From positions 1 to 41,504 of IMG/VR virus record IMGVR_UViG_3300030116_001958: a DNA stretch of 41,504 nt. One strand, 5' to 3'. Source of the DNA: a virus. The notes beneath the pieces were generated by a model, which ran no database searches, was not told the DNA's origin, and saw only the letters and a list, made by a program, of their open reading frames with translations. The position numbers and the translations under genes are program-made. Shown piece by piece: positions 4,600 to 41,504 of the stretch. Position 1 is the first letter of the stretch. Every line of letters begins with the position of its first letter.

Positions 4600-7500
4600 A
4601 GTTGCATCTCTTTTCTAATTCTGTAACTTTTGCAGATAGCTCTTGAATTGCTTTCATTAATACAGAAACAACACCTAAAGTATTAATTGATTTTGTACCC
4701 TCTTCTCCATGAACTAACTCTGGAAAATATTTTTCAACATCTTGAGCAATAAAACCTATTTGCTTGTCATCGCTTTTTGTTTCTTCTTTCCATTTAAAAG
4801 TTGAGGGTTTTATTTTGTTAACACTTTCAAGTGTTTTTCCTAAATCTTTAATATTCTTTTTTAAAGCTTTATCAGAAGTATCATTAAAATCGCCATCAAT
4901 CACACCATTCGTATTTATAAGAAATGGAACTGAACTGCCTTGTCTAATTCTCATAGCTTGACTTGCTTGTAAATCAATACTTCCAAGATTTGTTGTATAG
5001 CCAAAAATAAATCCATTAGAATTGCTATCATTACTCAACCTCATAATATCTGAAGAACCATGAGCATCTACGTCTAACTTTACTGCTGGGTTACTATCTC
5101 CCACCCCAAAATTTGCACCATTATTTATATAGCTTTTTGAATTACCACTAATTAAAACTTTCAAAGAATTGCTTGAGTTTAATCTAAGCTCACCACAAGT
5201 ACCACCACTAAAGCTCTCCTCAAAGAGTGTTCCAGCTATATTAGTATCCCCATTGTTTTCTAATACAATACCTCCTACAATTTGCCCAGCACCAGCAGAT
5301 TTAACAGTCAATTTATATGATGGTGTGTCAGTTCCAATACCTATTTTTCCATCGTCTTTAATTACCATATCATCATTTTGAGATGAACCACCACCAAGTC
5401 TTAAATCGCCATTACCATTTGAAGATATACTGCCTTCTACAGAACCAGAAGCACTTAAAAATCTCAATCGCCCTCTTGCACCACTTGTTAATTGAATAGC
5501 TATGCCATTATCAGTTCCAATTACATGAAGAGGATTTGTGGGTGAGGTAGTTCCAATGCCAACCTTGCCACTATTACAAACTAAAGTATCAGTCATAGTT
5601 CCAGCTACTTGCGTTTGTAAGTGCAATCTGCCATCTTCACTTGTATGTGATATATCTTCTATTTGAGCATTTATCTGAGCATAAACATTTGTAGTTGTAT
5701 TTGCTGAATCAGAACCTTGAAATTGTATTTCTCCAAGAACATCATTATTATCTTCAGATGCTGAATTATCCCTTTGAAGTGTTAAGATTGGCCCAGCGTT
5801 TGCATCTCCATTCGTTTCAGTTATAGTTAAATCACCCCTCATAGTATTATTTGAAACTGTACCACCAAGCTCAAGTGCAGTTGAGTTGCCAGAAACAAAA
5901 TTTATTTTATCATCTGTAAATCTTATAAATGTGTCTGTATCTCCAGAGTGTGTAAGTCTTTCTGGTATTAATACATCATTAGGATAAAATTCTGCTTCAC
6001 TACCTCTAAGGATTAATTTAGAACCTAAACTTCCATCTGTTGCTACTTGTAATTTAAGCTGACCATCTCTTGTGCTTGAACCACTATAATCGCCCTCTCT
6101 TGCACCTATTACTGCTGCTGTAGCATGACCAGAGCTTGTTGTGGTAAAATTAATACTGCTTGTTTCATCTATACTTCCACTTCCAGCAGAGTTTTTTACA
6201 GTAAGAGAAACATCCCCTCCATCATTTGATTTTACTATGCTCATGTTTTCAGCAAAGGTAAAATTACCACTTGTATTAGAAGTAACTTTATCTGAACCAC
6301 TAAATGCTATTGCTAATTGTCTTACATCTAACTTTGCATTTACATAAGCAGAGCCAGTATGCCATTTAGTAGTTTGGTCTGAGCCATCTCCATTAATAAA
6401 AAAAGTACCAGCATTGTCTATTTCTAATCTTTCAACATTATTTGTAGAAAAATTTATTGAGGCATTATTTTTATTATTAATACTTAATATGCCATCGCCA
6501 GTACTTAGATAACCAATTAAACCAAGTTGGTTTGTATCTGCTCTATCGTAAAATTCGATATGTGGTGTTGCAGTAGCTAAAGAATTTGAATTAGCATCTG
6601 ATATTCTTATTACTGGGTCATCATTATGAACATGGAGAGCCTTTTGAGGCGATACGCCCACCCCAACTTTTCCAGAGCTGTCTATTCTCATTCTTTCAGT
6701 CATTGAGCCACCATTAGCCTGTGTTAAAAAGTCTATGTAAGCATCATCAGAATTAGCTTCTCTTTTAATATTTATTGCACCAACAGAATCACTTCCTTGC
6801 GATGCAAGTAGTGACATAATTTCTTCATCATTACTTGCAGATGTATTTTTAAATAATATACCTGGCACATCATCAGTTCCACCAGCACCCTCAATATTTA
6901 ATAAAGTGCTATAACCCTCATCAGTTGTTCCACCAATAAATGTTTGACCACTTGCTGTAAGTGTAGTAAATGCACCAGTTCCAGCAGAGTTTGCACCAAT
7001 GTTCGTTCCGTCTATCGCACCAGAATCTATATTTACATTTGTTATTGCTTGGTTGTTTGCGTCTAAAGCACCAGCTAATTGTGAAATAGTTACTGATCCA
7101 ATAGTACCACCATTGATAGCATCGCCAGAAATTTGGTCGTTTGCAAGTGTTAATGTACCACCTGAAACATTTAAAGTTTTTCCTGTACCTACTGTAATAT
7201 CAGATGTTGCTATTGTAGTTCCATCAATATTACCACCATCTATATCTACTGTAGCAGCTTCTAAGTTTGCAACTAATGTAGCAACTGTATATCCTGTAGC
7301 GCTTGTATTGATAGTATTAGTTGTAGATAGATCTTCTTGTGAATCTATAAATAATTTAAACTTGCCACTATCGTTAGCATCTCTAAATAAACCTGCGTAT
7401 TTATCTGTACCACCTGCATCATATAATCCTACAAAACCTATATCAACTACGTCAGAAGAATTATTATCTCTACCAAGCTGTATTAAACTATCATCAACTT

Positions 7501-18432: not shown

Positions 18433-18457
18433 GAGAGTGGGGATTTATATATATATT

Positions 18458-18516
18458 ACTTAGTAATGGAATACTATTATTAATTATATTACTTAGTAAT
18501 GTATCACTTAGTAATG
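18458..18516. promoter_or_regulatory. Three operator-like repeats upstream of the small terminase gene
   Basis: ACTTAGTAATG occurs three times in 59 bp, at 18458-18468, 18491-18501 and 18506-18516. Two copies are within the perfect interrupted palindrome ATTACT-T-AGTAAT. A related half-site (TTAGTAAT on the - strand) lies over the candidate -10 of the leftward promoter at about 18743. Spaced dyads in front of a late gene look like a protein-binding operator array. They also code for part of a short - strand reading frame, which I do not call a gene. Confidence 0.6.
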
Positions 18517-18771: not shown

Positions 18772-18784
18772 TAAGAGAGTGATG

Positions 18785-18798
18785 AAGTTTCAAAACTT
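18785..18798. promoter_or_regulatory. Inverted repeat AAGTTT-CA-AAACTT
   Basis: A perfect 6-2-6 inverted repeat (AAGTTT, CA, AAACTT) lies about 70 bases upstream of the first leftward gene. It is short and AT-rich, so chance is possible. Its place inside the divergent control region makes it a possible protein-binding site. Confidence 0.3.
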
Positions 18799-18854
18799 AA
18801 TCTACATTGTGTGTGTGAGACGTTTACGTTACCGTACCCCGTTGCATTACGGGT

Positions 18855-18884
18855 TTGACTTTGTGATTAGGTTACAATTTTGAT
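18855..18884 (+). promoter_or_regulatory. Candidate rightward early promoter
   Basis: TTGACT (18855-18860) is followed by an 18-base spacer and TTTGAT (18879-18884), pointing to transcription toward 19004. A short CCCGT/ACGGG hairpin (18838-18853) stands directly upstream. The -35 is good and the -10 is weak. If a host enzyme starts early transcription, this is the best-looking site; a phage-carried polymerase might use a different signal. Confidence 0.4.
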
Positions 18885-18898
18885 TTCAGTATTGCCCA

Positions 18899-18952
18899 CC
18901 CTGTATGCCAGCTGGCTCTCCCCTAGCCTTCGGCTAGCCCCCGAGCACAGGG
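18899..18952. other. GC-rich multi-hairpin element in the control region
   Basis: This island is clearly richer in GC than its surroundings. CCCTGT (18899-18904) pairs with ACAGGG (18947-18952). Inside lie the palindrome GCCAGCTGGC (18907-18916) and a six-base-pair stem with a three-base loop, CTAGCC-TTC-GGCTAG (18923-18937). No T-tract follows on either strand, so it is not a simple terminator. It could be a leader RNA, a polymerase-recognition hairpin or an origin element. The 5' leader of the first early gene would contain it. Confidence 0.5.
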
Positions 18953-19003
18953 CATATTTACCCCTTGGTATGTTTTACTTTAATCAACTCTTAAGGAGGT
19001 CGC

Positions 19004-19183: not shown

Positions 19184-19222
19184 TGTAGTGTATCGTAATG
19201 ATGCACTACATTACCCCTTTTT
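19184..19222 (+). terminator. Intrinsic terminator after the first early gene
   Basis: A stem of 10-11 bp (arms 19184-19194 and 19200-19210, one G-U pair, loop GTAAT) is followed by CCCC and a run of five T. It stands ten bases after the stop codon of the 56-residue gene. Fit to rho-independent termination is good. It would limit transcription of downstream early genes unless antiterminated or re-initiated. Confidence 0.75.
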
Positions 19223-19224
19223 AT

Positions 19225-19339
19225 GATATGTAAGGCATTACTCAAAGTTAATAGTAAACACTACCGTTAAATTGCTAATAATTGCTAAGTGAGTGTTTAA
19301 GAGTTTAAGAAACTTGTCTTGTCTTACATATCTTTTTTT
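19225..19339 (+). ncRNA. Predicted structured RNA ending in a T-tract (~115 nt)
   Basis: The segment is closed by a perfect 10-bp stem (GATATGTAAG 19225-19234 with CTTACATATC 19323-19332) and followed at once by seven T, as in an intrinsic terminator. A second perfect 8-bp stem lies inside (TAAACACT 19255-19262 with AGTGTTTA 19292-19299), plus a small hairpin AGTTT/AAACT (19302-19314). No ORF fits. It could be a small RNA, an attenuator or an RNase III-type processing site. Family unrecognised. Confidence 0.55.
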
Positions 19340-19556: not shown

Positions 19557-19630
19557 AGGGATAGTAAGCTACTGGCACACTCGTTTACGGATGATGCTTA
19601 ACAGAAGAATCTGAGTAGCTTCAATACCCT
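19557..19630 (+). ncRNA. Predicted three-way-junction RNA (74 nt)
   Basis: AAGCTACT (19566-19573) pairs perfectly with AGTAGCTT (19614-19621), and AGGG (19557-19560) can pair with CCCT (19627-19630). Between them two hairpins can form: CACACTCG-TTTA-CGGATGATG and CAGA-AGAA-TCTG. Length is tRNA-like, but there is no acceptor/T-arm pattern and the long pair joins the wrong arms. It is an intergenic structured RNA or processing site between early genes; family unknown. Confidence 0.5.
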
Positions 19631-27457: not shown

Positions 27458-27713
27458 CTTGCACTTCGTCAGGATAATAATAATCAGTATAACCAGCTTT
27501 ACTGTAAAAATCAGGAGATTTCATATTACCTGTTTTTAAATAATAATCTAACATCCATTGTGCCATTTTAGATCCCCAAGGAATATCATGACTTTTAGTA
27601 TGCTGCATCAATTCTTGTGGTGGATTATTATTAAAAAGACTTCTTTTAAATTCCATGTGATTATCATCAGATCCACTAAATATATTATCTAATATTGCTC
27701 TTTTTTTATTCAT
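27420..27713 (-). CDS. Small acidic protein after the giant gene (97 aa)
   Basis: The 97-residue protein begins MNKKRAILDNIFSGSDDNHM and contains SHDIPWGSKMAQWMLDYYLKT. It ends with an acidic tail (DEVQDEKEEELDTESY). It overlaps the giant ORF stop by eight bases and the basic 64-residue gene by 38. An acidic protein next to basic ones may act as a partner or assembly factor. Family unrecognised. Confidence 0.6.
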   Translation of the reverse strand: MNKKRAILDNIFSGSDDNHMEFKRSLFNNNPPQELMQHTKSHDIPWGSKMAQWMLDYYLKTGNMKSPDFYSKAGYTDYYYPDEVQDEKEEELDTESY

Positions 27714-30700
27714 CTAAAAACTCCGATATAGTTTTTTGTCTTGCATCTCTTAATTGTTCACGCTTGATATCGTATTGTACTTTATCAACAGGTAATCTAA
27801 AAAAGTTATGAAAAAACCTCTCTGGTCTTTCTTTAGTTTTCTTATATGAATAATATAATCTACCACCTGGATACATAGTATGTATACTATAATCACTAAA
27901 TTTTTCCCAATCACCTTGGAGTAATTCTACAAATGTTTGTGGAAATCTTGCAAGTGGTGGTAATGCTATTTGTAATGGTGCTATTGGTCTAGGCAATGTA
28001 CCATAAAAAGCTCTTTCTCTTTCTTTTTTATCACCAAATAAAAGATCTCCTGTTTGCTGAAACCAATCCCATGGTGGTGGTAGGGCAACATCAAAAAGAG
28101 AGTACATATACATTCCACCTATTGCAGCTGTAAATAAATCTGTAAGATATAGATCTTTAAATCTTTTATAAGCATCTGTATTCTGCTTAAAACCTTGTGC
28201 TTTAGCTTGTTGATAGAATTCTTTCCTAACTCTAACAGATTGAAAAGCAAATAACTTAAACCTGGTTAAAACTCTTCCTAATGCTGTTCTCATAAATGCA
28301 GGTCTAAAACTATTGTGATATAAGAACTGTGTAGTTTCAATACCACGTAATCCTGCTTCAAAGATAAAAGGATCATCCATTTTTATATCTACACCTGCTT
28401 CACCTAATCTTTCTTTCATTTTAAGAGCGTGTGCAACAAAAGCATTTCTTCTATTTATTCTTTCTGATGAACTCATAAAAAATCCACCTGCTTTTACTAA
28501 CCTTTCACCTACTCCATATCTATTAGCTATTTGTAAAACAGATTCATCGTCAGCACCATTTTTTATAGCACGTGTAATTTCTTTAGTAAAGTTAACTGAA
28601 TTTTTACCCATACCTTTAATTATGTTGGAAACATTAGGATTAGTATCAAATTCATTCTTTATATAATTATCTATTACACCTTTTTCATCTAAAAAACTAT
28701 ATAAATCTTTTCTAGTTTTTACTGCTTTGCCAGATTTTAACTTTATTATGTAATCACCATTTCTATTTTGTAATAAATTTTTAGTTACATAACCAAAGTT
28801 TAAAGCATTTACATAATGTTTTGTACCTGCACTACCTATGGTCATTGTACCGCCACCATATAAATTAGTCATCATAGATCCAGTATTTGCAAGAAGTGTA
28901 ACTAAGTTATATTTAGCTTCCATCATTCCTAGATTATGCAGCCTCCTCACAAAATAATCTCTTCTAGCTTCTGGATTCTCTGGTGCATTTTTCATGTATG
29001 GCATTTTATCAAACTTACCAGTTTTATATAATCTCTCTAGAGCATTTGTAACTGCATAATCTGTTGTAAGGTAGTATGGGTTGTACTTTAATTTTAATGG
29101 ATCTCCTTTATCAATAGATTTTTGTATTCTATCTGTTAACAAACTTGGATGACCTAACGTATCTTTTAAATGCATATATAAAAAGTCTGACCAAAGATCG
29201 CTATTATTTTTATAACCAGCTTGTTGTAAATTTTTATTTTGTTTAGCTGATAGCCTAGCATTAAAAGCAGTATTATCTGCAAATTTAAAATCAGATATAA
29301 CTTTATTACCATGTATAGCTGTCATATTAGCAAAATAACTTCTATCTATTTGTTGTCTATAAATACTATACATATCAGGCCCTTTATCATAGCCATCAAT
29401 AAATAACTCACCTCTTTGTAATAAATTCTTAGCTTTATTCTTATATCCTACATCTTTATAATTACGATCTCTAAACTCAAAAACATGATTTAAATAATTA
29501 TCTTCTATTCTTGTGCTATCTCTCATGTGATTTTCTTTCATAAGGTCAGCATCATCACGTGTAATCTTACCTTCTTTTATTAATTTATCTACGCTTTCAT
29601 TGTATAATTTAATAGAAGCATTATCTTTATTATAATTTGTTCTTGGCCAATAGCCTTGTGGATCTAAAAATCCAAATGCATAGTCTTTAAATTTATATTT
29701 TTCTCGATAAGCAAGTCTAGATTGTAAATTTGCTTTCTTCCCTAATTTCGCCTCCATGATATCTTCATACTGGTATCTGAGTTGTTCTTCGATTGTAGTA
29801 CGTTTTGCGTTTCTACCCATAAATATGGGCTTTATAACCCTATTGTAGTACAATTTTCTATCCATAGAACCATCACCAAGAAAACGAATGTTATCATTTA
29901 CTACTATTGCTTTAAAATTATCTTTTGCGTCTATACTATCATAATCAAATCTTTGACCATTTTTATCAAATGTATATATATCTTTACCTATTTCTGTAAT
30001 AAAAGCAGTAAATTTATCATCATACTCTTTTACTAACTCTTGACCAGTTTTACCTTTAAATTTTTTAGTTAGAAATTGTTTTGCTTTAGCAGAAGGTTCT
30101 TGTTGTCCTTCATTTCTTCTAAAAGATATATGATCATATAAATGCACTTTATCTGTATTTGTTAATCCGTATTTTTCAGAATCAAAATATTGTGCATCTT
30201 TTAACATAGATTCTGTTTCTTTGGCATTTTGTAATCTTAAATTATTTCTAGTAAACTGTCTCATCTCACCCATAGGAGTAAATAGTCTTTTTACAGTCTT
30301 TTCTTTAAAATTACCTTTAGCATCAACTAAAGTATAGGTTTGATCGAACTTCTTAACTACATCCATTAATCTTCTATCTACAGTTCTAGGATCTGACCAA
30401 TAGGCTGACCTGTCTAATAATCCTGTCTTACCTGTTTTAATTTCTAAAAACCTACCATTTATACCTCGTATATCTTCCATGTTTATTGTAGATATATCTC
30501 TTGGTATATCTTTTTCTAAAACATAATCATAAAACATATCTTCTATAGTTAAACCAGGATTTTCTTGTAAATTTTTTCTAAGTTCTTTTACCTGCAATGC
30601 ATCTTCATCAGTTCTTGCAGCTACATCCCCTAATCCAACTTTATATTTATCTTTTTTAATCTGTTTGTATACTTTATTAGTTTCTCCAATACTTCTATCT

Positions 30701-33700
30701 ACAGCTAAAACTAAATCTTTTTTATTTGTAGGAATACTACCAATAATATTTTTAGGTGTATCATCAATTTTTTCTACACGATTATAAACATTTTCAAATT
30801 TTGTAAAATAATTTCTTAAACTTTGATCACTTATTTGCTCACTACTATATATTAATCTATTCTCTCTAAATATATTGCCAAAAACTTTAGTAGGCTCTAA
30901 TAGTGCAGTTTCAAAATATCTATTCATGTAAAGTTCTACATATTGATTTAGATTGTTTCTACCTACATATTCTTTTATATCTTTTTTAACTTCTAATATA
31001 GCTTCATCAAGATCTGGAACTTTAGTTATATTATTATCATTATCTTTAATTATTTTATTTACGCGTACTCTTATATCTTCAGCTCTTTTATATAAATTTG
31101 ATAATTGATTTTTTACAGATTCTACATTCTTTTTAGTGCCTACATTTTTATATACTCTATATCCATAATCATTTAAAAGCTCATATACAGATACTTTACT
31201 TAAATTAACACCAATAGATTCATATACATCTTCTCTTGTATTTCTATTAGATTGTTGAAATGTTTTAACTATAGATTTATTAACTCCAAATAATTCTTTA
31301 ACAAAGGGTACATCTTGCTCATCAATCTTTTTAGTATCTATATTTTTAAATTTTATAGATATATCCTTAGCATCACTAACTGTAAAAAGATTAGAAAAAA
31401 GATTATTTTCTTCTCCTATTTTAAATTTTGTATTCTCTGGCATTACAAAATTTTTATTTTCTTTTTGAAAAAAATCAATATTGCTTAAAAACCCATCATA
31501 ACTTTTATCATTCCTATTAAAAGGTTGAGCTTTAAATTTTGTATAAAAATCTCCACTATCTTTTAAAATATTCTTTGCTTTATTAGACATCTTACCTTCA
31601 AAGCTATCATTAAAAACTTTATTTTGCATAGCATCAAAATATGATACATTATCATAATTACTGCTATCATTGTTTATATCAATAATATCTTTAATATTAT
31701 TTTGCATATTTCTAGCAGCATTTTTTCTTAATTTAATACCAGGTACATTCCCAGCTTTTACATTTTCATAAAGATCATAGTACCTATTAAAATATCCAAT
31801 ACTAGGCCCTCTTTGTGCTTCACCTACCCTACTTGTAGAGTAAGCTTTTATTCTGTAATGTGGACTAAATTTATTTAATGCACTACCAAAGTTTTTAGTA
31901 CCAAAAGTATTCTTTTCGTTAAACTCTCTATCTTTTACTTTTAATAAATCATTAATATGATCTCTACTACCAAATTGTATAACTTGGAAAGAATCAATAT
32001 CTTTGTCCATACCACCTAGATAAAAATCGTCTTTTGAACTTGTGGCTGAGGCTTTATTTCCTCCTGGTAAAAATCCAGCCATGCGTAAAACACGAGTGCC
32101 AGAAAAATCGTAAGCAGGAACACGTATAACCAGCAAATCAAGAGATTCATTAAGTTTCTGAACTGCTTCTTTAGAAAGTAATTGAAATTGATTATTTTGT
32201 TCTGGAGTTCCAAGTTTTTTCGATATCTTATATAAAGACCATAGATGTTCCATTGTTGATTCATTATTTTTATCTATACCTTTTTTAATTTTGTTTAATT
32301 CAGATCTTTGAGCATCATCAATATCTATACGCACTTTCATTTTTTTAAGTGCACCACCTAACACAATAAGTCCATCTTCTTTGTTTAAAAAAGTATCTCT
32401 ATCAACTTTAATCATATCAGCATTGTCAATTAAATCTTTTGTTACTGGAGCAGCAGTTGATTTTTGTGCATAAGGCCAGTAAGGAGTATCTAGTTTTTTA
32501 CGAACATATTTACCTACGCTATTCAAATAATCATCAAAAATCATTTTATGAAAATTATTTGCAGCATACCCACCTTGCATTGCATTATATACTTTAGAGG
32601 TTCTATTATGATATTGTTTATAGTTAAGATCGTTTGTTTTATCAAAAGAAAAATCATCAGACATAGGGTTGTCAGTTTCTGATACCTTTTGAAATGCTCT
32701 TCTAAATATATCTCCATTTTTATCATTGCTTGATAATTGCTTTAAGAAAAATTCAGAAGGAAACTCATATATTCTATTTGCATCTTCTGTTAAATATTTT
32801 TTTATTTCTTTAATATCTTGAGTTTTATTATAGCTTTCTACTAATTCTCTTGCTTTAAAACTACCATTTATAGTGTAGTCAAAATAATGTCTCATATATT
32901 CTTTTGACTTAGGAGCATCTATAGGGTTAGAAGTAGAAAAAAATTGCCTATAAAGATTGTCGCCTTGTTTTTTTATAAATGTTTTTTCATAAGTAGTTGG
33001 ATTAATACGTAATGACTCTGTAGATACATCAAAGTAATTAACTTGTCCAACTAAATCATATTCACCAGTTTCTTTATTGTATTGATAGTCAGTAGGTTTA
33101 GTCTCTGATTTTATTTTATTTGCACTTTGAAATACTACAAAATCCAAACCATCTCTTTTCATTAGCTTATCTATTGCTGGATATGCATCAGAAAAAGATC
33201 CACTTGCTTTTAATGCAACTAATCCTTTATCTACAGGAGCTTGTATTCTACCTACAACAACAGGTTTTATTAGTTTAGATAAAGATTCTAAACCTACAGC
33301 ATTAGCTGCTTCTTTACCTATTCTTGTTAAAAATATTAAACCACCATCAGCATTGGAAGAATCAGGTATTTCATCTATATTAAATTGTTCATCTTTTAAT
33401 ATAGCAAATCTTAAATTATCTCCACCATTTAATGTTGTAAAGTTTTCTCTATGCAATGGCATACCAGAAGATTCCATATAAAGCTGCATCCTTTTGTTAT
33501 AATCAACTGCATGTTTAAAATAATTATTTGTAAGTATTTTTGGTAGCTCATTTATATTATAACCATGAAATGATAACTCATGCATTATATTAGAAACAAA
33601 AGCTCTTTCATGTATATTTTTAGATATATCTCCTTTATATAGTTTTACAAATTCTCTTTCAGAATCTTTAAATGCAGATTCTAAATCTTTTTCTAAATTA

Positions 33701-35583
33701 CCAGCAGACTTTTTTAATTCATCAAATTTTAAAGTACCATTTCTATCATTGAATTCTGCAACTATAAATCCAGGCTTATCTTTCATGCCTGCAAATATAT
33801 AACTACCATTACCTTGTTTAGCTAAAGATGAATTTATATTGGCTAAATCTTTTCTGTTTATATTAAATTGTTTATCAAAAGGATCCATTCTAAAAATATC
33901 ATCATAGATCCTAGTATTTCTTACTAAATTTAACACTTTAAAGCTACCAGGTATGCCAAAGTTATCTAATATTGGACTATTATAATCGTTTTTACCTATA
34001 TACCTAACACCATCTACATACCCAGCTTTTTCTTCTGAAACAGTTCCATCTATTACATTATATACTAACACATCTCTTTCTTTAATTACGGACTGTGCAA
34101 ATAAAGATCTAAGATTATTTTCATTCTTTTTATTAGATAAATACTGATCGTATATACCATTTTGTCTTAACTCTTTAATAAATCCTGCTGTATTAATACC
34201 TGTAATATCATCATTATTAATTTTATATTTATTAATAGTAGTCAATAAACTTCTTTGTATATTGTCTACAGATGTTGTTGTTTTAATATTGCCTAAGCTA
34301 TCATATATATTAGTAGCAACATCTAAAATTTTAGGAGAAGGTATATTTAATTCATTGACTGCATCTTCTGAGTTATCAGCTACAACAGGTCTTTCAGCTT
34401 TATATTTTTCAGAAGGAACTCTTGTATTTATATTTAACTCATAAGCATAATCTCTAACTTCTTTATCTCTTGCAGCTTGACTTTTATCTTTTGAATATTG
34501 CAATCTTTTATTTACAATATTATTTATTTCTGCATTTGGAATTTTGTAAATATTTCTAAGTGTGTTATATGCTAAATCTGTAGACTCACTAAGAACATAA
34601 TCTTTTGTTTCTTTTGTAAGCTTATTAAAATCTTGTCTAGCTTCTGGCTTATAATCCATTTCTGGATGTAGTGTACTTCTTTTATTTATAAATTCACTAC
34701 CTGCTATCTTGTATGCTGGTCTTGCACTATACCCAAAGAATCCACCTAGTAGATAATGATATAGCTGCATTGATAAATCTTCATCACCAGTTATAGTAGA
34801 TGGCACACCAGTAATAGTAGAACCTACTGCAGCTTTAAGTAATCCTTCTGCTCTTTCTCCCATCTGTGGAGTTTTAGCAGCACCAAATAAATTAGCTATA
34901 GATCTCCAGTTACCTATACCACCAAATGCACCACCAAATATTGCATTTTGTATAGCTACATTCCAAAAAGCTTCTGACTTATCATCTGCAGATGCTATAT
35001 TCCAAACTTCTGATATTGTACCTGCAGTACCTAAATTTACAGCTTCTTGTAATATTTCTCTTCTAACAGCTCCAGGTCTTAATGCACCTACTGCTCCAGT
35101 TTTAGTTTTGTCTAAAACAACATCTACTGTTTTTCTTGCTAACTTTCCTGATGCCATTGGTAAAGACCATTTATCTAATGTTTGTATAGCTTTTTGTCCT
35201 ACAAATTGCCCTTTAGGTACAGACTTAGCTATACCTGCAGCTCTTGCTAATGCAGTAGCTCCTTTTAATGGTGCAGATAATATGGAGGGTGCGAATCCTG
35301 CTAGATGACCTAAACTATATGCTATTTTTTCAGATGTAGTTTTTGCTAAATCTCTAGTATCTTGTGGCGGTACAAAAGGTATAAGACCTCTTATAAACCC
35401 ATCACCAGCTTGATTTACAATATCATATAAAGAACTAGAATCTCTTCGAGGATTAAATTTTATATTGTATAAATCTGCTTTCTCTGATAATACATCTACT
35501 TGATCATCATTAAAAGCACCAGGATTTACTCTATATAAATTAACCAAAGATTGAATTTGGTTTAATTCATTTTGTATTGCCAT
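27706..35583 (-). CDS. Giant virion protein with putative two-barrel RNA polymerase core (2625 aa)
   Basis: The N terminus (about 1-300) has Ala/Gly-rich hydrophobic helices (LAGFAPSILSAPLKGATALA), as in ejection proteins. DGLDFVVFQSANKIK (Lys823, Lys825) resembles the Lys-bearing barrel of multisubunit-type polymerases. LLVIRVPAYDFSGTRVLRM precedes LGGMDKDIDSFQVI, with Asp1193/1195/1197 in D-x-D-x-D form. That equals the metal-binding motif of double-psi-barrel RNA polymerases (DFDGD; DFDID-like in crAss-like virion polymerases). The C-terminal SSERINRRNA / RPAFMRTALGRVLTRFKLFA (about 2425) recalls PLxRFG polyvalent proteins. The inferred role is an injected RNA polymerase. Confidence 0.75.
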   Translation of the reverse strand: MAIQNELNQIQSLVNLYRVNPGAFNDDQVDVLSEKADLYNIKFNPRRDSSSLYDIVNQAGDGFIRGLIPFVPPQDTRDLAKTTSEKIAYSLGHLAGFAPSILSAPLKGATALARAAGIAKSVPKGQFVGQKAIQTLDKWSLPMASGKLARKTVDVVLDKTKTGAVGALRPGAVRREILQEAVNLGTAGTISEVWNIASADDKSEAFWNVAIQNAIFGGAFGGIGNWRSIANLFGAAKTPQMGERAEGLLKAAVGSTITGVPSTITGDEDLSMQLYHYLLGGFFGYSARPAYKIAGSEFINKRSTLHPEMDYKPEARQDFNKLTKETKDYVLSESTDLAYNTLRNIYKIPNAEINNIVNKRLQYSKDKSQAARDKEVRDYAYELNINTRVPSEKYKAERPVVADNSEDAVNELNIPSPKILDVATNIYDSLGNIKTTTSVDNIQRSLLTTINKYKINNDDITGINTAGFIKELRQNGIYDQYLSNKKNENNLRSLFAQSVIKERDVLVYNVIDGTVSEEKAGYVDGVRYIGKNDYNSPILDNFGIPGSFKVLNLVRNTRIYDDIFRMDPFDKQFNINRKDLANINSSLAKQGNGSYIFAGMKDKPGFIVAEFNDRNGTLKFDELKKSAGNLEKDLESAFKDSEREFVKLYKGDISKNIHERAFVSNIMHELSFHGYNINELPKILTNNYFKHAVDYNKRMQLYMESSGMPLHRENFTTLNGGDNLRFAILKDEQFNIDEIPDSSNADGGLIFLTRIGKEAANAVGLESLSKLIKPVVVGRIQAPVDKGLVALKASGSFSDAYPAIDKLMKRDGLDFVVFQSANKIKSETKPTDYQYNKETGEYDLVGQVNYFDVSTESLRINPTTYEKTFIKKQGDNLYRQFFSTSNPIDAPKSKEYMRHYFDYTINGSFKARELVESYNKTQDIKEIKKYLTEDANRIYEFPSEFFLKQLSSNDKNGDIFRRAFQKVSETDNPMSDDFSFDKTNDLNYKQYHNRTSKVYNAMQGGYAANNFHKMIFDDYLNSVGKYVRKKLDTPYWPYAQKSTAAPVTKDLIDNADMIKVDRDTFLNKEDGLIVLGGALKKMKVRIDIDDAQRSELNKIKKGIDKNNESTMEHLWSLYKISKKLGTPEQNNQFQLLSKEAVQKLNESLDLLVIRVPAYDFSGTRVLRMAGFLPGGNKASATSSKDDFYLGGMDKDIDSFQVIQFGSRDHINDLLKVKDREFNEKNTFGTKNFGSALNKFSPHYRIKAYSTSRVGEAQRGPSIGYFNRYYDLYENVKAGNVPGIKLRKNAARNMQNNIKDIIDINNDSSNYDNVSYFDAMQNKVFNDSFEGKMSNKAKNILKDSGDFYTKFKAQPFNRNDKSYDGFLSNIDFFQKENKNFVMPENTKFKIGEENNLFSNLFTVSDAKDISIKFKNIDTKKIDEQDVPFVKELFGVNKSIVKTFQQSNRNTREDVYESIGVNLSKVSVYELLNDYGYRVYKNVGTKKNVESVKNQLSNLYKRAEDIRVRVNKIIKDNDNNITKVPDLDEAILEVKKDIKEYVGRNNLNQYVELYMNRYFETALLEPTKVFGNIFRENRLIYSSEQISDQSLRNYFTKFENVYNRVEKIDDTPKNIIGSIPTNKKDLVLAVDRSIGETNKVYKQIKKDKYKVGLGDVAARTDEDALQVKELRKNLQENPGLTIEDMFYDYVLEKDIPRDISTINMEDIRGINGRFLEIKTGKTGLLDRSAYWSDPRTVDRRLMDVVKKFDQTYTLVDAKGNFKEKTVKRLFTPMGEMRQFTRNNLRLQNAKETESMLKDAQYFDSEKYGLTNTDKVHLYDHISFRRNEGQQEPSAKAKQFLTKKFKGKTGQELVKEYDDKFTAFITEIGKDIYTFDKNGQRFDYDSIDAKDNFKAIVVNDNIRFLGDGSMDRKLYYNRVIKPIFMGRNAKRTTIEEQLRYQYEDIMEAKLGKKANLQSRLAYREKYKFKDYAFGFLDPQGYWPRTNYNKDNASIKLYNESVDKLIKEGKITRDDADLMKENHMRDSTRIEDNYLNHVFEFRDRNYKDVGYKNKAKNLLQRGELFIDGYDKGPDMYSIYRQQIDRSYFANMTAIHGNKVISDFKFADNTAFNARLSAKQNKNLQQAGYKNNSDLWSDFLYMHLKDTLGHPSLLTDRIQKSIDKGDPLKLKYNPYYLTTDYAVTNALERLYKTGKFDKMPYMKNAPENPEARRDYFVRRLHNLGMMEAKYNLVTLLANTGSMMTNLYGGGTMTIGSAGTKHYVNALNFGYVTKNLLQNRNGDYIIKLKSGKAVKTRKDLYSFLDEKGVIDNYIKNEFDTNPNVSNIIKGMGKNSVNFTKEITRAIKNGADDESVLQIANRYGVGERLVKAGGFFMSSSERINRRNAFVAHALKMKERLGEAGVDIKMDDPFIFEAGLRGIETTQFLYHNSFRPAFMRTALGRVLTRFKLFAFQSVRVRKEFYQQAKAQGFKQNTDAYKRFKDLYLTDLFTAAIGGMYMYSLFDVALPPPWDWFQQTGDLLFGDKKERERAFYGTLPRPIAPLQIALPPLARFPQTFVELLQGDWEKFSDYSIHTMYPGGRLYYSYKKTKERPERFFHNFFRLPVDKVQYDIKREQLRDARQKTISEFLDE

Positions 35584-35584
35584 A

Positions 35585-36178
35585 TTATACTAAACGAGGT
35601 AAATAATCTATATTTCTTGGTGTTGCTCTTTGTGCACTTTCAGCAATTGTATTTCTTGTCAAGTTTGCTCTTATAAATGGGCCTAATAAACCACCATATA
35701 AAGCACCTGTCATTGCTCTTTCTGGTGCACCTAATGGATCTTCAGCTAAATTAATTGCTGCTAGTCCACCTGCACCTCTTGTTGCTCCTTCTGCAGCTCT
35801 TCTTAAGGTAGTTCTAAATTTACTTGCATCAGTCATAGCTTTTCTTGGTAATAATTTACTACCAACTTTTGCACCTGCTGTTAAAGGTATAGCTAATCCT
35901 AATAAATTACCTGCACCAGATGACAATCTTTCACTTCTAGTTTCTCCGTATAAATCTTCACCTCTAGATTTAGGCCTCATAGAATTAGGTATTGCACCAA
36001 AAGTAGCACTATCTGCTAAATCAAAAAAAAATTTTTGTAGTTTTTTTGTTTCAGGTCTAAATGGTAATCCTAGTTGCAAAGCAATAACAGCTATTTTTTC
36101 AGCTTCAGAATCAGTATAATCACTAGGATCTAAATTATAATCATATACAATTCTTTTTGCTTGTTGTACTGGATCCAT
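35585..36178 (-). CDS. Internal virion (ejection) protein, membrane-active (197 aa)
   Basis: This 197-residue protein starts MDPVQQAKRIVYDYNLDPSDY. Two Gly/Ala-rich hydrophobic segments follow (SSGAGNLLGLAIPLTAGAKV; then ATRGAGGLAAINLAEDP and TGALYGGLLGPF). Its first 100 residues parallel the N terminus of the giant protein just downstream (see findings), suggesting a shared membrane-insertion module. TAATG overlap with the coiled-coil gene upstream (36178). Probably enters the host envelope with the DNA. Confidence 0.65.
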   Translation of the reverse strand: MDPVQQAKRIVYDYNLDPSDYTDSEAEKIAVIALQLGLPFRPETKKLQKFFFDLADSATFGAIPNSMRPKSRGEDLYGETRSERLSSGAGNLLGLAIPLTAGAKVGSKLLPRKAMTDASKFRTTLRRAAEGATRGAGGLAAINLAEDPLGAPERAMTGALYGGLLGPFIRANLTRNTIAESAQRATPRNIDYLPRLV

Positions 36179-36846
36179 TATCTTTGCCCTTCTATTTCAG
36201 CTTGTTGAATTCTAAACATATCATCAACTTTATCAACTTTATATTTATCATCTCCAAAGACTTCGTATAAATTATTTAATAATTGATTACGTGCAGGTTG
36301 GAAATTATAATCCATAGTAAAATCAAATAATGATTTATTAAATCTTAAATTTTCTGGAATTGGTATTTCATTAGGTTTTATATCAGCTGGATTATAATTA
36401 GTAATTAAATCATCATAATCATTAATAACTTTATTTAAATTTTCTCTTTTTTTAGGATTTAAAATAGATAGTGTTTTTTGTCTTTCTAAATATTTTTTAA
36501 AGGTTTTAGGTTTTAAAAAATCTGGCATATCTTCATAATCACTTAATAGATTATCATTATCTTTTGCAAACTCTCTATTTTTCTTTGCAGATAGTCTTAA
36601 TTTTTGTTGCAAGTCAACTCTTTCTCTAAAAACTTTATCTCGATATTCTTGCTCTACAGTAAGCAAGTCAAATAATGTTCTTTCTCTAGTTGCTCTATCT
36701 TTTGCTCTTTTTTCTGCTTCTTCACGCAAAAGCATTTGCCTATTAAATTGTTCTCTTTGTGAATCCTGTCTACGCATTTCTAATGCATACCTAGGAAGAT
36801 TATCTAAAAATTGATTTATTGGATCATTAGTTATTTGTATAGACAT
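36178..36846 (-). CDS. Coiled-coil internal virion protein candidate (222 aa)
   Basis: The 222-residue protein is highly charged. A long alpha-helical N-terminal half (ALEMRRQDSQREQFNRQMLL, DRATRERTLFDLLTVEQEY) looks like a coiled coil, followed by a mixed C-terminal half. No membrane span. It is TAATG-linked at both ends (36846, 36178) with neighbouring ejection-type genes. Structural role by context. Confidence 0.6.
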   Translation of the reverse strand: MSIQITNDPINQFLDNLPRYALEMRRQDSQREQFNRQMLLREEAEKRAKDRATRERTLFDLLTVEQEYRDKVFRERVDLQQKLRLSAKKNREFAKDNDNLLSDYEDMPDFLKPKTFKKYLERQKTLSILNPKKRENLNKVINDYDDLITNYNPADIKPNEIPIPENLRFNKSLFDFTMDYNFQPARNQLLNNLYEVFGDDKYKVDKVDDMFRIQQAEIEGQR

Positions 36847-38765
36847 TAAAATTGACCTCTTGTTCTTTTATCTTCATCAGTTTGTGTGAAGTTTTCACCA
36901 CCTGTATCACCAGTTGGATTAGCTATGGCACCTCTTCTAAATCTACTAAGATCAGCTTCACTTCTAATTAAATCTACAAGTCTACTTCTAGTATCTCTTG
37001 CAAAATCATCTCTAAAATTAAATATAGATCTTTGTCTTTCTTGCTCTGCTAATCTACTTCTTAAATCAGATTGTTCTGTTAAAAAGTTTTGACTTTCTGT
37101 AATACCTGCTAATTGTTGGGCTAATTCAAATTGACTTCTTGCAGTTTGTGCTTCTGCACCTCTTCTTTGTATACCTAAAGAACCTAATTGATTTGCCGCT
37201 CTTTCTCTTTGCTGTCTTAAATTAGCATTTATTTCAGAATCAGTTAAATTCAATCCAGCAACTTGACCTTCTAATTGTAATTGCCTTCTTGCTATTGAAT
37301 CATTAAGTGCACCTCTATTCAAATCTAATCCTTGCAATTGTCTAGAAAGAGCTTGTTGTAATAACCCTGGCTCTTCTTCAGTACCTATTTGTCTACCTAA
37401 TGCACCTTCTCTAATTCCTATCCTATCTAAATTTTCTTCACCAGTTGCATATACATCACGAAATCTAGCTGCTCTTTGATCTTCTGCAATTCCTAATCTA
37501 CCTAATATATCGCCTAGTCTATCAGATTCTAAATCTTGTTGCTGTAACAATCTTTCACCAGAAATATCTTGTCTTTGTAATTGCCTAGATAATCTATCTT
37601 GTTCTGCTCCAATTTGTTGAGATATACCACCTCTTTGTATACCTATTCTTGCTCGTGCTAAAGCTTGGTCTTGCATCAAAGCAGTTTCTCTATCTTCTAA
37701 AGCTTCTGATTGTATACCTAATCTATCTTCAGCTCTACCTAAAGAATCTATTCTACCTCCTACTCTGCCTAAATAGCTATCTATAGCTCTTTGTGTTTCC
37801 ATAGGCCTTCTACCTTCTGCAGCAAAATTACCTGATTGCTCTGCTCTTCTATATATATCAAACAAATTACCTCTGGCATCTGCCATAGTTTGATCTTGTT
37901 GTTGAGCTAATTCATCTGACTGCATACCAAGCAATTCTTGTTGCCTTGATATATCTTGTAATCCACGACCTGTTCTAAGTGATAAGTCTTGTTCCTGTAA
38001 GGAAGCTAAAGCATCTTGTCTAGCAAGTTGTCCTGTTCTTAATCCTGATGATGCTTCAAGGTCTTCAGTTTGTAAATTTAATAATTCTTGTTGTCTTTGA
38101 GACTCACCAGCTCTTGCACCAGATTCTCTAATAGCTGACTCTCTTGCAATTAAATCTAAACTACCTTGCGATCTAAGATCTCTAAGTTGTGACTGTGTAG
38201 ATCTTTGAGCTGCAGCTTTATCTATACCTAAACCTTCTAATTGATCAGCTATTTTTGTTTCTGCTTCCATAGTTGCAGATTTTAATTCTGCTTCTCTTAT
38301 ATTAAATTGCTTAGCTTTTCTATCTTGTTCTGCTTGTAATCTACCTCCAGTAAACTGCCCATCTTCTCCTTGCATACCTAATTCTTGCATTAATGCATTT
38401 CTTTGTATATCTGTTCTACCTAAAGCTCTTGCTTGTGCTTCTTCTGCAAAATCTAAATTAGATTGTACTGCTTGTCCTCTTAAATCAAAACTTTCAAGTT
38501 GTCTACCTAATGCTTCTGATAAAAATCTTTGTTGATTTAACCCTGATAATGCTTGTCTACCTAATTGACCTTGTTGCCTTCTAAGTTGTGCATTGGCTAA
38601 ATCTTGAGTTAAAACAAATGCATTATTTGTAAATAGCTCTCTTGTGTTATCATACGAATCAAATATATCTCCATATTCTTTTTGTAGTTTTTTTGTATCA
38701 TAATTGCTAAGAATATCAGCTATATCTGTACTTAATTCATAATCTATTTCTGTAAATTGTGACAT
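36846..38765 (-). CDS. Gln/Arg-rich repetitive coiled-coil virion protein (639 aa)
   Basis: The 639 residues are dominated by Gln, Arg, Leu, Ala and Glu with irregular short repeats such as LGRQ...L, RLGIQ, RQELLGMQSDEL and SRQLQRQDISGERLLQQQDL. It is almost all helix and low in Lys. This pattern suggests a long rod or sheet of helices like the ring-forming internal core proteins of podoviruses (T7 gp15-16 class), though no sequence homology is claimed. It is TAATG-coupled to the downstream gene and lies two genes before the giant polymerase candidate. Confidence 0.65.
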   Translation of the reverse strand: MSQFTEIDYELSTDIADILSNYDTKKLQKEYGDIFDSYDNTRELFTNNAFVLTQDLANAQLRRQQGQLGRQALSGLNQQRFLSEALGRQLESFDLRGQAVQSNLDFAEEAQARALGRTDIQRNALMQELGMQGEDGQFTGGRLQAEQDRKAKQFNIREAELKSATMEAETKIADQLEGLGIDKAAAQRSTQSQLRDLRSQGSLDLIARESAIRESGARAGESQRQQELLNLQTEDLEASSGLRTGQLARQDALASLQEQDLSLRTGRGLQDISRQQELLGMQSDELAQQQDQTMADARGNLFDIYRRAEQSGNFAAEGRRPMETQRAIDSYLGRVGGRIDSLGRAEDRLGIQSEALEDRETALMQDQALARARIGIQRGGISQQIGAEQDRLSRQLQRQDISGERLLQQQDLESDRLGDILGRLGIAEDQRAARFRDVYATGEENLDRIGIREGALGRQIGTEEEPGLLQQALSRQLQGLDLNRGALNDSIARRQLQLEGQVAGLNLTDSEINANLRQQRERAANQLGSLGIQRRGAEAQTARSQFELAQQLAGITESQNFLTEQSDLRSRLAEQERQRSIFNFRDDFARDTRSRLVDLIRSEADLSRFRRGAIANPTGDTGGENFTQTDEDKRTRGQF

Positions 38766-39939: not shown

Positions 39940-41504
39940 TACGCTAATCTCTTTGTTGTTGTTCTAAATTCAATAGATATTTCATTAATCTTTATACCTT
40001 TAGTAGTTCCTGTAGCAACTGTATTTTGTATTTTTAATTTAATACTTTGACATTGTACAATAGAACTAGGTACTAATTTTAAAATAGTAGGTGTCGAAAC
40101 GCTAGAAAAATTACCTGTTAATGTAGTAAAACTTGTTGAGCTATCAGTTGCAAATGATACAGGATTAGTATGTGATGCATCAGACTCATAAGTCACATAA
40201 ATAGCGTATATTCTTTTTATTCTACCAGGACTATCAAAATCTATATCTTTAGTTGTAAAAGTAAAATTACCATTAGCATGTGCTTTTGGAATATCTTTCC
40301 AAACAACTATTCCTGGATTTGTAGTTCTTGGTGCTTGACTAGAACTAATAAAATTATTACCACCACCACTTATTAAGAAATCACTAGATCCATATTGATG
40401 TGCATCTTCTATTGCTAAAATATCATTGTGAGAACCTGGTATATCAGTTGTGATTACATTATTTCTATTTGTCCAATTTACAAAATTAGTTATAACTGTT
40501 TCAGTTGGAGTAACTGATGTAGAGTTGTCTGCTTTTACTATAGCATTATTTTTAAAATCATATAGATATGCATTATTATTATCCTTAATACAATCTTTGA
40601 CTATTATTAAATATCTATGCTCATTATGATACCCTAATATTGTACCTTTGGTATAAAAACTAATCCATGATTCTGTTTTTAATTTATTTTCTAGCAAATT
40701 CTTAACTTGACCATTGTATAAATATAAACCATATTTACCAGCCCATACTACACCAAACTCAGTTTTTACTAAAGCTGATGCCATTTCACATCCAGCTCTT
40801 TCTATTGTATTTTCTAAAAACCAGTTTGATGGATTAGGGTTAGCAATATTAATTATAAATAGCTTATCTCTTTTATAAGCAAGTAATCTATCAGAAAAAC
40901 TAGATAGAGCAGTAAACTCACTTGCATCACCTTGTACAACATCTATAAAATTATCTCTTGGAAATGTATCAAACTTATTTATAGGTGTATACATTATTCT
41001 ATCTCTAAACTGCTTAAGAACATTATCACTCATCTTAGTTCTTATATTTGCAACGAAGCATCTTCTATTTGTTACCTCTGCAGCTTTATAGCCTTCACCT
41101 ACTCCACTTATTGTTATTTTTTCTTGTTCATTAGAAAAACCATTTAATATTTCATAAGTTTCTAAATTAATATCAGTACAATGTATAGACTCAGCTTTAG
41201 CTTGTGTTGCAGATGAATTATCAGACCAAGCAGATACATTATCATCTGTTTCAAAATTTAAATTCAAATTAGGTCTAATACCTTTTGTCATATCTACATC
41301 AATCAATAAGAAAAAAGGATCTTGTGTACCATCTACTCTAGCATATATTCTTGCACCACTTATTCTAGAATCATAAGCTGCATTTGCATATAAAGCAAAT
41401 TCTAATTTTTTATTAGCACCACTTGGAGTAAAAGTATTATTACTTGTTGGTATAAATAGTAATGATTCCTGATTACCATCATATATATAGGATACAGCTA
41501 TTTG
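39939..41504 (-). CDS. Tail nozzle-like protein, C-terminal part
   Basis: This is the C-terminal part of the about 890-residue protein whose N terminus is at 1-1220. A TTG in frame at 41306 can look like a start, but the frame is open well upstream through 41504 and on across the circular join, so it is internal. The sequence includes FRDRIMYTPINKFDTFPRDN, FIDVVQGDASEFTALSSFSD and GVVWAGKYGLYLYNGQVKNL. This is the beta-propeller style of short-tail nozzle and stabilisation proteins. Its stop overlaps the 65-residue gene as TAATG. Confidence 0.75.
   Translation of the reverse strand, partial: QIAVSYIYDGNQESLLFIPTSNNTFTPSGANKKLEFALYANAAYDSRISGARIYARVDGTQDPFFLLIDVDMTKGIRPNLNLNFETDDNVSAWSDNSSATQAKAESIHCTDINLETYEILNGFSNEQEKITISGVGEGYKAAEVTNRRCFVANIRTKMSDNVLKQFRDRIMYTPINKFDTFPRDNFIDVVQGDASEFTALSSFSDRLLAYKRDKLFIINIANPNPSNWFLENTIERAGCEMASALVKTEFGVVWAGKYGLYLYNGQVKNLLENKLKTESWISFYTKGTILGYHNEHRYLIIVKDCIKDNNNAYLYDFKNNAIVKADNSTSVTPTETVITNFVNWTNRNNVITTDIPGSHNDILAIEDAHQYGSSDFLISGGGNNFISSSQAPRTTNPGIVVWKDIPKAHANGNFTFTTKDIDFDSPGRIKRIYAIYVTYESDASHTNPVSFATDSSTSFTTLTGNFSSVSTPTILKLVPSSIVQCQSIKLKIQNTVATGTTKGIKINEISIEFRTTTKRLA
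41392..41504. repeat. Right copy of 113-bp terminal direct repeat
   Basis: Identical to 1-113 and in frame with it. See the left copy. The duplicate accounts for the extra 113 bases beyond a genome of about 41,391 bp. Confidence 0.9.

Follow-up and report, generated by a model that had tools for sequence, protein, structure and literature searches.

The window (the whole stretch of DNA analysed here, 41,504 nucleotides, IMG/VR record IMGVR_UViG_3300030116_001958) carries a 113-bp direct terminal repeat, found at both of its ends (positions 1–113 and 41392–41504). Collapsing this repeat restores an ORF of 892 amino acids across the ends, the product of which matches its counterpart in G025, a relative described below, from end to end with 42% identity. 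The terminal repeats and the restored ORF indicate that the genome is complete, with a length of about 41.4 kb. It encodes terminase, portal, capsid, tail fibre, endolysin, Sak annealing protein, primase-helicase and resolvase; the primase-helicase gene accompanies the family considered here in 12 of the 16 records tested.

A giant gene coding for a protein of 2,625 amino acids occupies positions 27706–35583 on the minus strand. It comes last among the large genes of the virion block, lies on the virion strand and converges with the early/replication block. Its product consists of an N-terminal carrier, a central part that we assign to the two-barrel RNA polymerases and a helical C-terminal carrier, a layout shared by most full-length relatives, which are 2.6–3.7 thousand amino acids long. 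The N-terminal carrier (residues 1–350, positions 34534–35583, minus strand) is rich in glycine and alanine, is conserved in the family and is weakly paralogous to the protein encoded immediately upstream. The C-terminal carrier (residues 2050–2625, positions 27706–29436, minus strand) ranks with the best-conserved segments of the family and is predicted by AlphaFold2, with low confidence, to be all-helical; the model of residues 1401–2600 was poor (pLDDT 64, pTM 0.46), and a fold search with it gave no match. Neither carrier has similarity to N4 gp50 or to gp66 of the crAss-like phage phi14:2, and no solid match to any known ejection protein was found for them. Residues 2367–2493 match the PLxRFG domain weakly; membership in this (tail-700) domain family, NCBIfam NF032893, was rejected, as the score of 24.3 bits compares with a curated cut-off of 100.

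Two small virion-block genes directly precede the giant gene. The first (35585–36178, minus strand) codes for an ejection-type protein of 197 amino acids with similarity to the N-terminal part of the giant protein (BLAST E 5e-5, hhalign E 2.5e-4). A weakly similar segment is common to this protein and to the giant protein's N terminus (35240–35583), whose carrier may thus have originated from an ejection protein. The second gene (36178–36846, minus strand) codes for 222 amino acids; its product, a conserved neighbour in G025 and G019, is a candidate ejection partner judging by its position. Further along the virion block, a 639-amino-acid protein (36846–38765) is rich in glutamine, arginine and leucine repeats and is a candidate periplasmic tunnel protein.

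The preliminary description saw no other RNA polymerase in this DNA, and the scans agree: among the proteins of the complete genome scanned against Pfam and PHROGs, neither another RNA polymerase nor a DNA polymerase was recognised. PF00940 was also silent in 29 records of the family, while the T7 and N4 controls were detected. Since this model detects N4 RNAPII but misses the N4 virion enzyme gp50, its silence leaves some room for a polymerase of the N4 type at another place in the genome.

Catalytic motifs and their conservation

Positions 31993–33126, which had drawn attention to the locus, correspond to residues 820–1197 of the giant protein. The pentapeptide DKDID (residues 1193–1197, positions 31993–32007, minus strand) lies within YLGGMDKDIDSFQ and is the sole DxDxD of the 2,625 residues; its three aspartates are proposed to form a Mg-binding loop and align with DFDID (D1361–D1365) of gp66. 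It is preceded by 39 residues by R1154-V-P1156 (32116–32124, minus strand), which aligns with YRIP of gp66. K823 and K825 are found within DGLDFVVFQSANKIK, 370 residues upstream of DKDID. All these features had been read correctly from the letters in the preliminary description, including the departure of DKDID from the usual motif and an R-x-P about 40 residues before it; its pair of conserved lysines fared differently, with K823 standing and K825 falling away (see below).

Direct searches with the giant protein gave no match in Pfam, PHROGs, PDB sequences or INPHARED, an NCBIfam search returned nothing but the sub-threshold PLxRFG domain, and six peptide patterns taken from the protein had no match in IMG/VR. 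Relatives were reached only via the portal protein, followed by a protein search of the IMG/VR records so retrieved; further members were collected by scans with an alignment of the polymerase region and, separately, of the C-terminal domain. The resulting family numbers over 60 members in IMG/VR, some full-length and others partial. No relative was found in the bacterial and archaeal genomes searched, and that search therefore gave no link to a host. G025 encodes a full-length counterpart (45% identity) in which DKDID and both the lysine and RxP segments are kept. In G040, a protein of 4,128 residues matches both ends of the giant protein and, weakly, residues 586–1341, and reads GGADNDGD at the motif; this version (L081:1575–13955) has roughly 1,300 extra residues ahead of the polymerase core. 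The core resides inside a giant ORF in 26/26 relatives tested. G067, a record of 88,986 bases, has the polymerase twice, once in a giant ORF of 3,031 amino acids and once in another of 3,080; either the assembly has merged two related phages or the block is duplicated.

In an alignment of 52 distinct full-length relatives, K697, D746, G747, K773, K823, R1154, P1156, G1162, R1164, G1191, D1193, D1195 and D1197 are invariant. Two other lysines, K697 and K773, thus share the invariance of K823 (52/52), and the K825 position is variable (R, K, T or N). K697 belongs to a DYNKR motif (D694–R698, positions 33490–33504, minus strand) in which R698 is kept by 51 of the 52, K697 and R698 being aligned with K893 and R894 of gp66. 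Most of the 52 sequences were gathered through the C-terminal domain, a query that does not contain the DxDxD motif, and their shared motif therefore reflects conservation beyond chance. In the C-terminal-domain scan, the motif was present in every complete ORF; in the one apparent exception, L150, the ORF is split in two and the motif is in the upstream part. The residues between the aspartates vary, with DKDID, DKDAD, DHDSD and DVDGD all present in the family. Some subfamilies read GADVDGD or GADNDGD, the former, the canonical reading, belonging to a divergent subfamily (at least nine members among those listed) and resembling the motif of cellular enzymes.

The very low overall sequence similarity to known polymerases could be taken to mean that the core has lost its catalytic activity and survives as part of an ejection protein. 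Pairwise identity among full-length members falls to 26–30%, and is often in that range, yet the three aspartates, RxP and K823 are invariant in all 52, which makes loss of activity extremely improbable.

Predicted fold and relationship to crAss-like polymerases

The core was modelled by AlphaFold2 as residues 560–1400 (31384–33906, minus strand) using an alignment of 19 sequences (pLDDT 75.9, pTM 0.72). The 50 best matches in a Foldseek search of the PDB were all two-barrel RNA polymerases (50/50). The first match was 6vr4, the virion RNA polymerase gp66 of phi14:2 (E 3.9e-8), followed by QDE-1, plant RDR2, AR9 and cellular polymerases. In a library of viral structures, the named matches were largely crAss-like proteins, the best ones being nameless. 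The TM-score to gp66, 0.38, is modest, as may be expected when a partial model is compared with large multi-domain chains.

The strands of the model place K823 (33115–33117) and K773 (33265–33267) in a proposed DPBB-B (residues 773–860, positions 33004–33267, minus strand), and RxP together with DxDxD in a proposed DPBB-A region, whose extent we estimate at residues 1039–1203 or thereabouts (31975–32469, minus strand). Directly after the DxDxD region the model has a 36-residue helix (residues 1241–1276, positions 31756–31863, minus strand), which we propose to be the bridge helix. The D1193–D1197 stretch itself is modelled with moderate confidence (pLDDT about 59), and its local geometry is tentative. 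Taken together, the fold matches support a two-barrel RNA polymerase fold for residues ~560–1400, in which the two barrels are proposed to form one active site.

The profile of the family was compared by hhalign with a profile built from 11 crAss-like polymerases. The two aligned over 443 columns with a score of 92.4 (E 1.6e-9); 30 block-shuffled controls scored at most 25.1 and the reversed control 24.6. The motifs are in register: RVPA is paired with RIPN, and GGMDKDIDSF with GSDFDIDKM, which sets DKDID against DFDID of gp66. The N-terminal half of the 52-member profile (the DPBB-B part) taken alone, without the aspartates, still aligned over 164 columns (E 1.1e-8), and the profile pairs K697, D746, K773 and K823 with K893, D962, K1012 and K1065 of gp66. 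As a single sequence, gp66 matched the family profile weakly (E 0.028), significance being reached with the crAss-like profile; for gp96 and gp64 of Thermus phage P23-45, also used as single sequences, no similarity to the family profile was detected. These comparisons show at the level of sequence that the core is a homologue, very divergent, of the crAss-like virion polymerases. The profile alignment, the fold matches and the invariant catalytic residues agree with one another and bear out the original proposal of a two-barrel RNA polymerase.

Other enzymes have these barrels as well. PolD has both (PMC10770324), and none of the proteins scanned was recognisable as a DNA polymerase; QDE-1, in turn, is the second-best fold match, so one may ask whether the core is a PolD-like DNA polymerase or an RNA-templated polymerase of the QDE-1 type. 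We regard either as very unlikely. PolD is absent from the best 50 PDB matches and reportedly shares only the barrels with these polymerases (PMC10770324), whereas the present model has a long, bridge-like helix after the aspartates; and the nearest sequence relatives are the polymerases of crAss-like phages. QDE-1 and plant RDR2, the next two groups after gp66 in the fold search, are eukaryotic RNA-interference enzymes without virion carriers; in a published dendrogram, RNA-interference enzymes group with the phage single-subunit two-barrel polymerases (PMC10770324).

Gp66 and its Crassvirales relatives thus offer the closest comparison for the core. They have a single-chain two-barrel core with RxP...DxDxD and the aligned lysine, and gp66 is a giant protein encoded in a virion gene block. 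The carriers of gp66 are different, its motif is D-F-D-I-D rather than the D-K-D-I-D or D-V-D-G-D seen here, and crAss-like genomes are about 90–100 kb compared with 41 kb. No ORF of the window matches a phi14:2 protein (BLAST, E 0.001), and by that test the phage does not belong to the Crassvirales. In layout, and in its proposed function, the giant protein is analogous to N4 gp50 (Schitoviridae), a single chain of ~3,500 amino acids with N-terminal, polymerase and C-terminal domains, whose gene adjoins those of two ejection proteins and converges with early genes; the giant gene likewise lies beside putative ejection genes and converges with the early block. However, gp50, described as a single-subunit polymerase (PMC12633501), has no similarity to any segment of the giant protein, and PF00940 is absent here. 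A third comparison is gp96 of P23-45, a giant virion protein with a two-barrel polymerase fused to it, which was found by the same DxDxD logic (PMC10770324); unlike the giant protein, it is the tape measure of a long-tailed phage with a clamp-less polymerase at its N terminus (PMC10770324).

A proposed virion-packaged polymerase and its possible role in early transcription

We propose, with a probability of roughly 0.86, that the 2,625-amino-acid protein is a virion-packaged, co-injected, single-chain two-barrel RNA polymerase that would transcribe the early genes. Packaging, injection, transcription of early genes, promoter use, catalysis and the function of the carriers are suggested by the position of the gene, the layout of domains and analogy, the model of packaging, passage and promoter use being drawn from gp66, N4 and crAss001 (PMC12633501; PMC10172136). 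The protein would be packed with the ejection proteins, cross the tail in an extended form and refold in the host. The conserved N- and C-terminal carriers would hold the polymerase in the particle and, with the neighbouring ejection proteins, aid its passage through the tail. After injection, the core (residues about 560–1400), with one double-psi barrel contributing K823 and the second contributing R1154/P1156 and the Mg-binding D1193/D1195/D1197, followed by the bridge helix, would transcribe the early genes (about 19–27 kb, plus strand) before or without host RNA polymerase.

Two-barrel polymerases that are not part of the virion do exist, P23-45 gp64 being one (PMC10770324), and the giant protein could similarly be made late and act in the infected cell, its flanks having another role. 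We consider this unlikely: the gene is placed at the end of the virion block, has the orientation of the virion genes, adjoins ejection-type genes and opposes the early genes, the relatives encode the polymerase as one giant chain with conserved carriers, and the nearest homologue, gp66, was annotated from MS/MS of virions. The enzyme, its invariant catalytic residues included, is shared by at least 50 uncultured relatives, and the lineage therefore probably delivers its own transcription machine along with its DNA.

In the early region, the repeated element CCCTTTTTATG is found, allowing up to one mismatch, at five sites of the window between 19.2 and 22.1 kb (19215–19225 and also 19627, 20013, 20307 and 22025), all on the plus strand, i.e., the early strand only; one of 100 shuffled sequences matched this. 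Related elements recur in the relatives (CACACCCTTTTAT in G025, CCTTACCCTTTTYT in G060, TGCTTCCTTTATCT in G054 and G055), where the opposite strand has few copies or none; this C/T-rich, lineage-specific element stands before early genes, on the early strand only, in the window and at the loci L083, L134, L135 and L137. Several copies of CCCTTTTTATG sit at the end of GC-rich hairpins, as in terminators, and so two readings stand: the element is a candidate promoter of the virion polymerase or a candidate terminator. The element TACCCCTT alone was not significant (7/100 shuffles), and sigma-70-like promoters between 17.5 and 20.5 kb were at chance level.

Other repeated or structured elements occur in the same part of the genome. 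A conserved non-coding block lies ahead of the early genes (window 18776–18965; L083 about 6570–7015), and its long hairpin CCCTGTATGCC...ACAGGGCATA, common to the window and G025, is a possible structured RNA. The divergent region (window 18456–18515) has three near-perfect copies of the palindrome TTACTTAGTAAT, and G020 has similar ones. A hairpin of the form AGCTAC..GCACACTC..GATGATGC..GTAGCT is repeated in the window (19566–19620), in G025 (twice, at about 7877 and 8749 of L083) and in G020.

Significance of the family

The open-licence papers examined describe virion polymerases of the two-barrel type solely for crAss-like phages, P23-45 and jumbo phages; we found no description of the giant-protein polymerase family in the papers searched, and Pfam, PHROGs, NCBIfam and INPHARED leave it unannotated. 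The present analysis adds a large family that combines a catalytic core related at long distance to that of crAss-like phages with an N4-like layout and small genomes. It provides a compact model for an RNA polymerase travelling inside an ejection protein, and the variation of its motif helps to trace links among phage, RNA-interference and cellular polymerases. It also predicts that phages with genomes of about 40 kb should have early transcription that resists rifampicin.

Tentatively, and at less than even odds, we extend the proposal to a widespread lineage of 36–50 kb phages that would be transcriptionally self-starting, with a two-barrel virion polymerase housed in an N4-like three-part ejection chain and with promoters of its own, the lineage-specific C/T-rich elements (ACCCYTTTTAT-like) before the early genes. 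If this is true, N4-like and crAss-like phages would have arrived from unrelated enzymes at one design of injected polymerase, and this design would fit small genomes.
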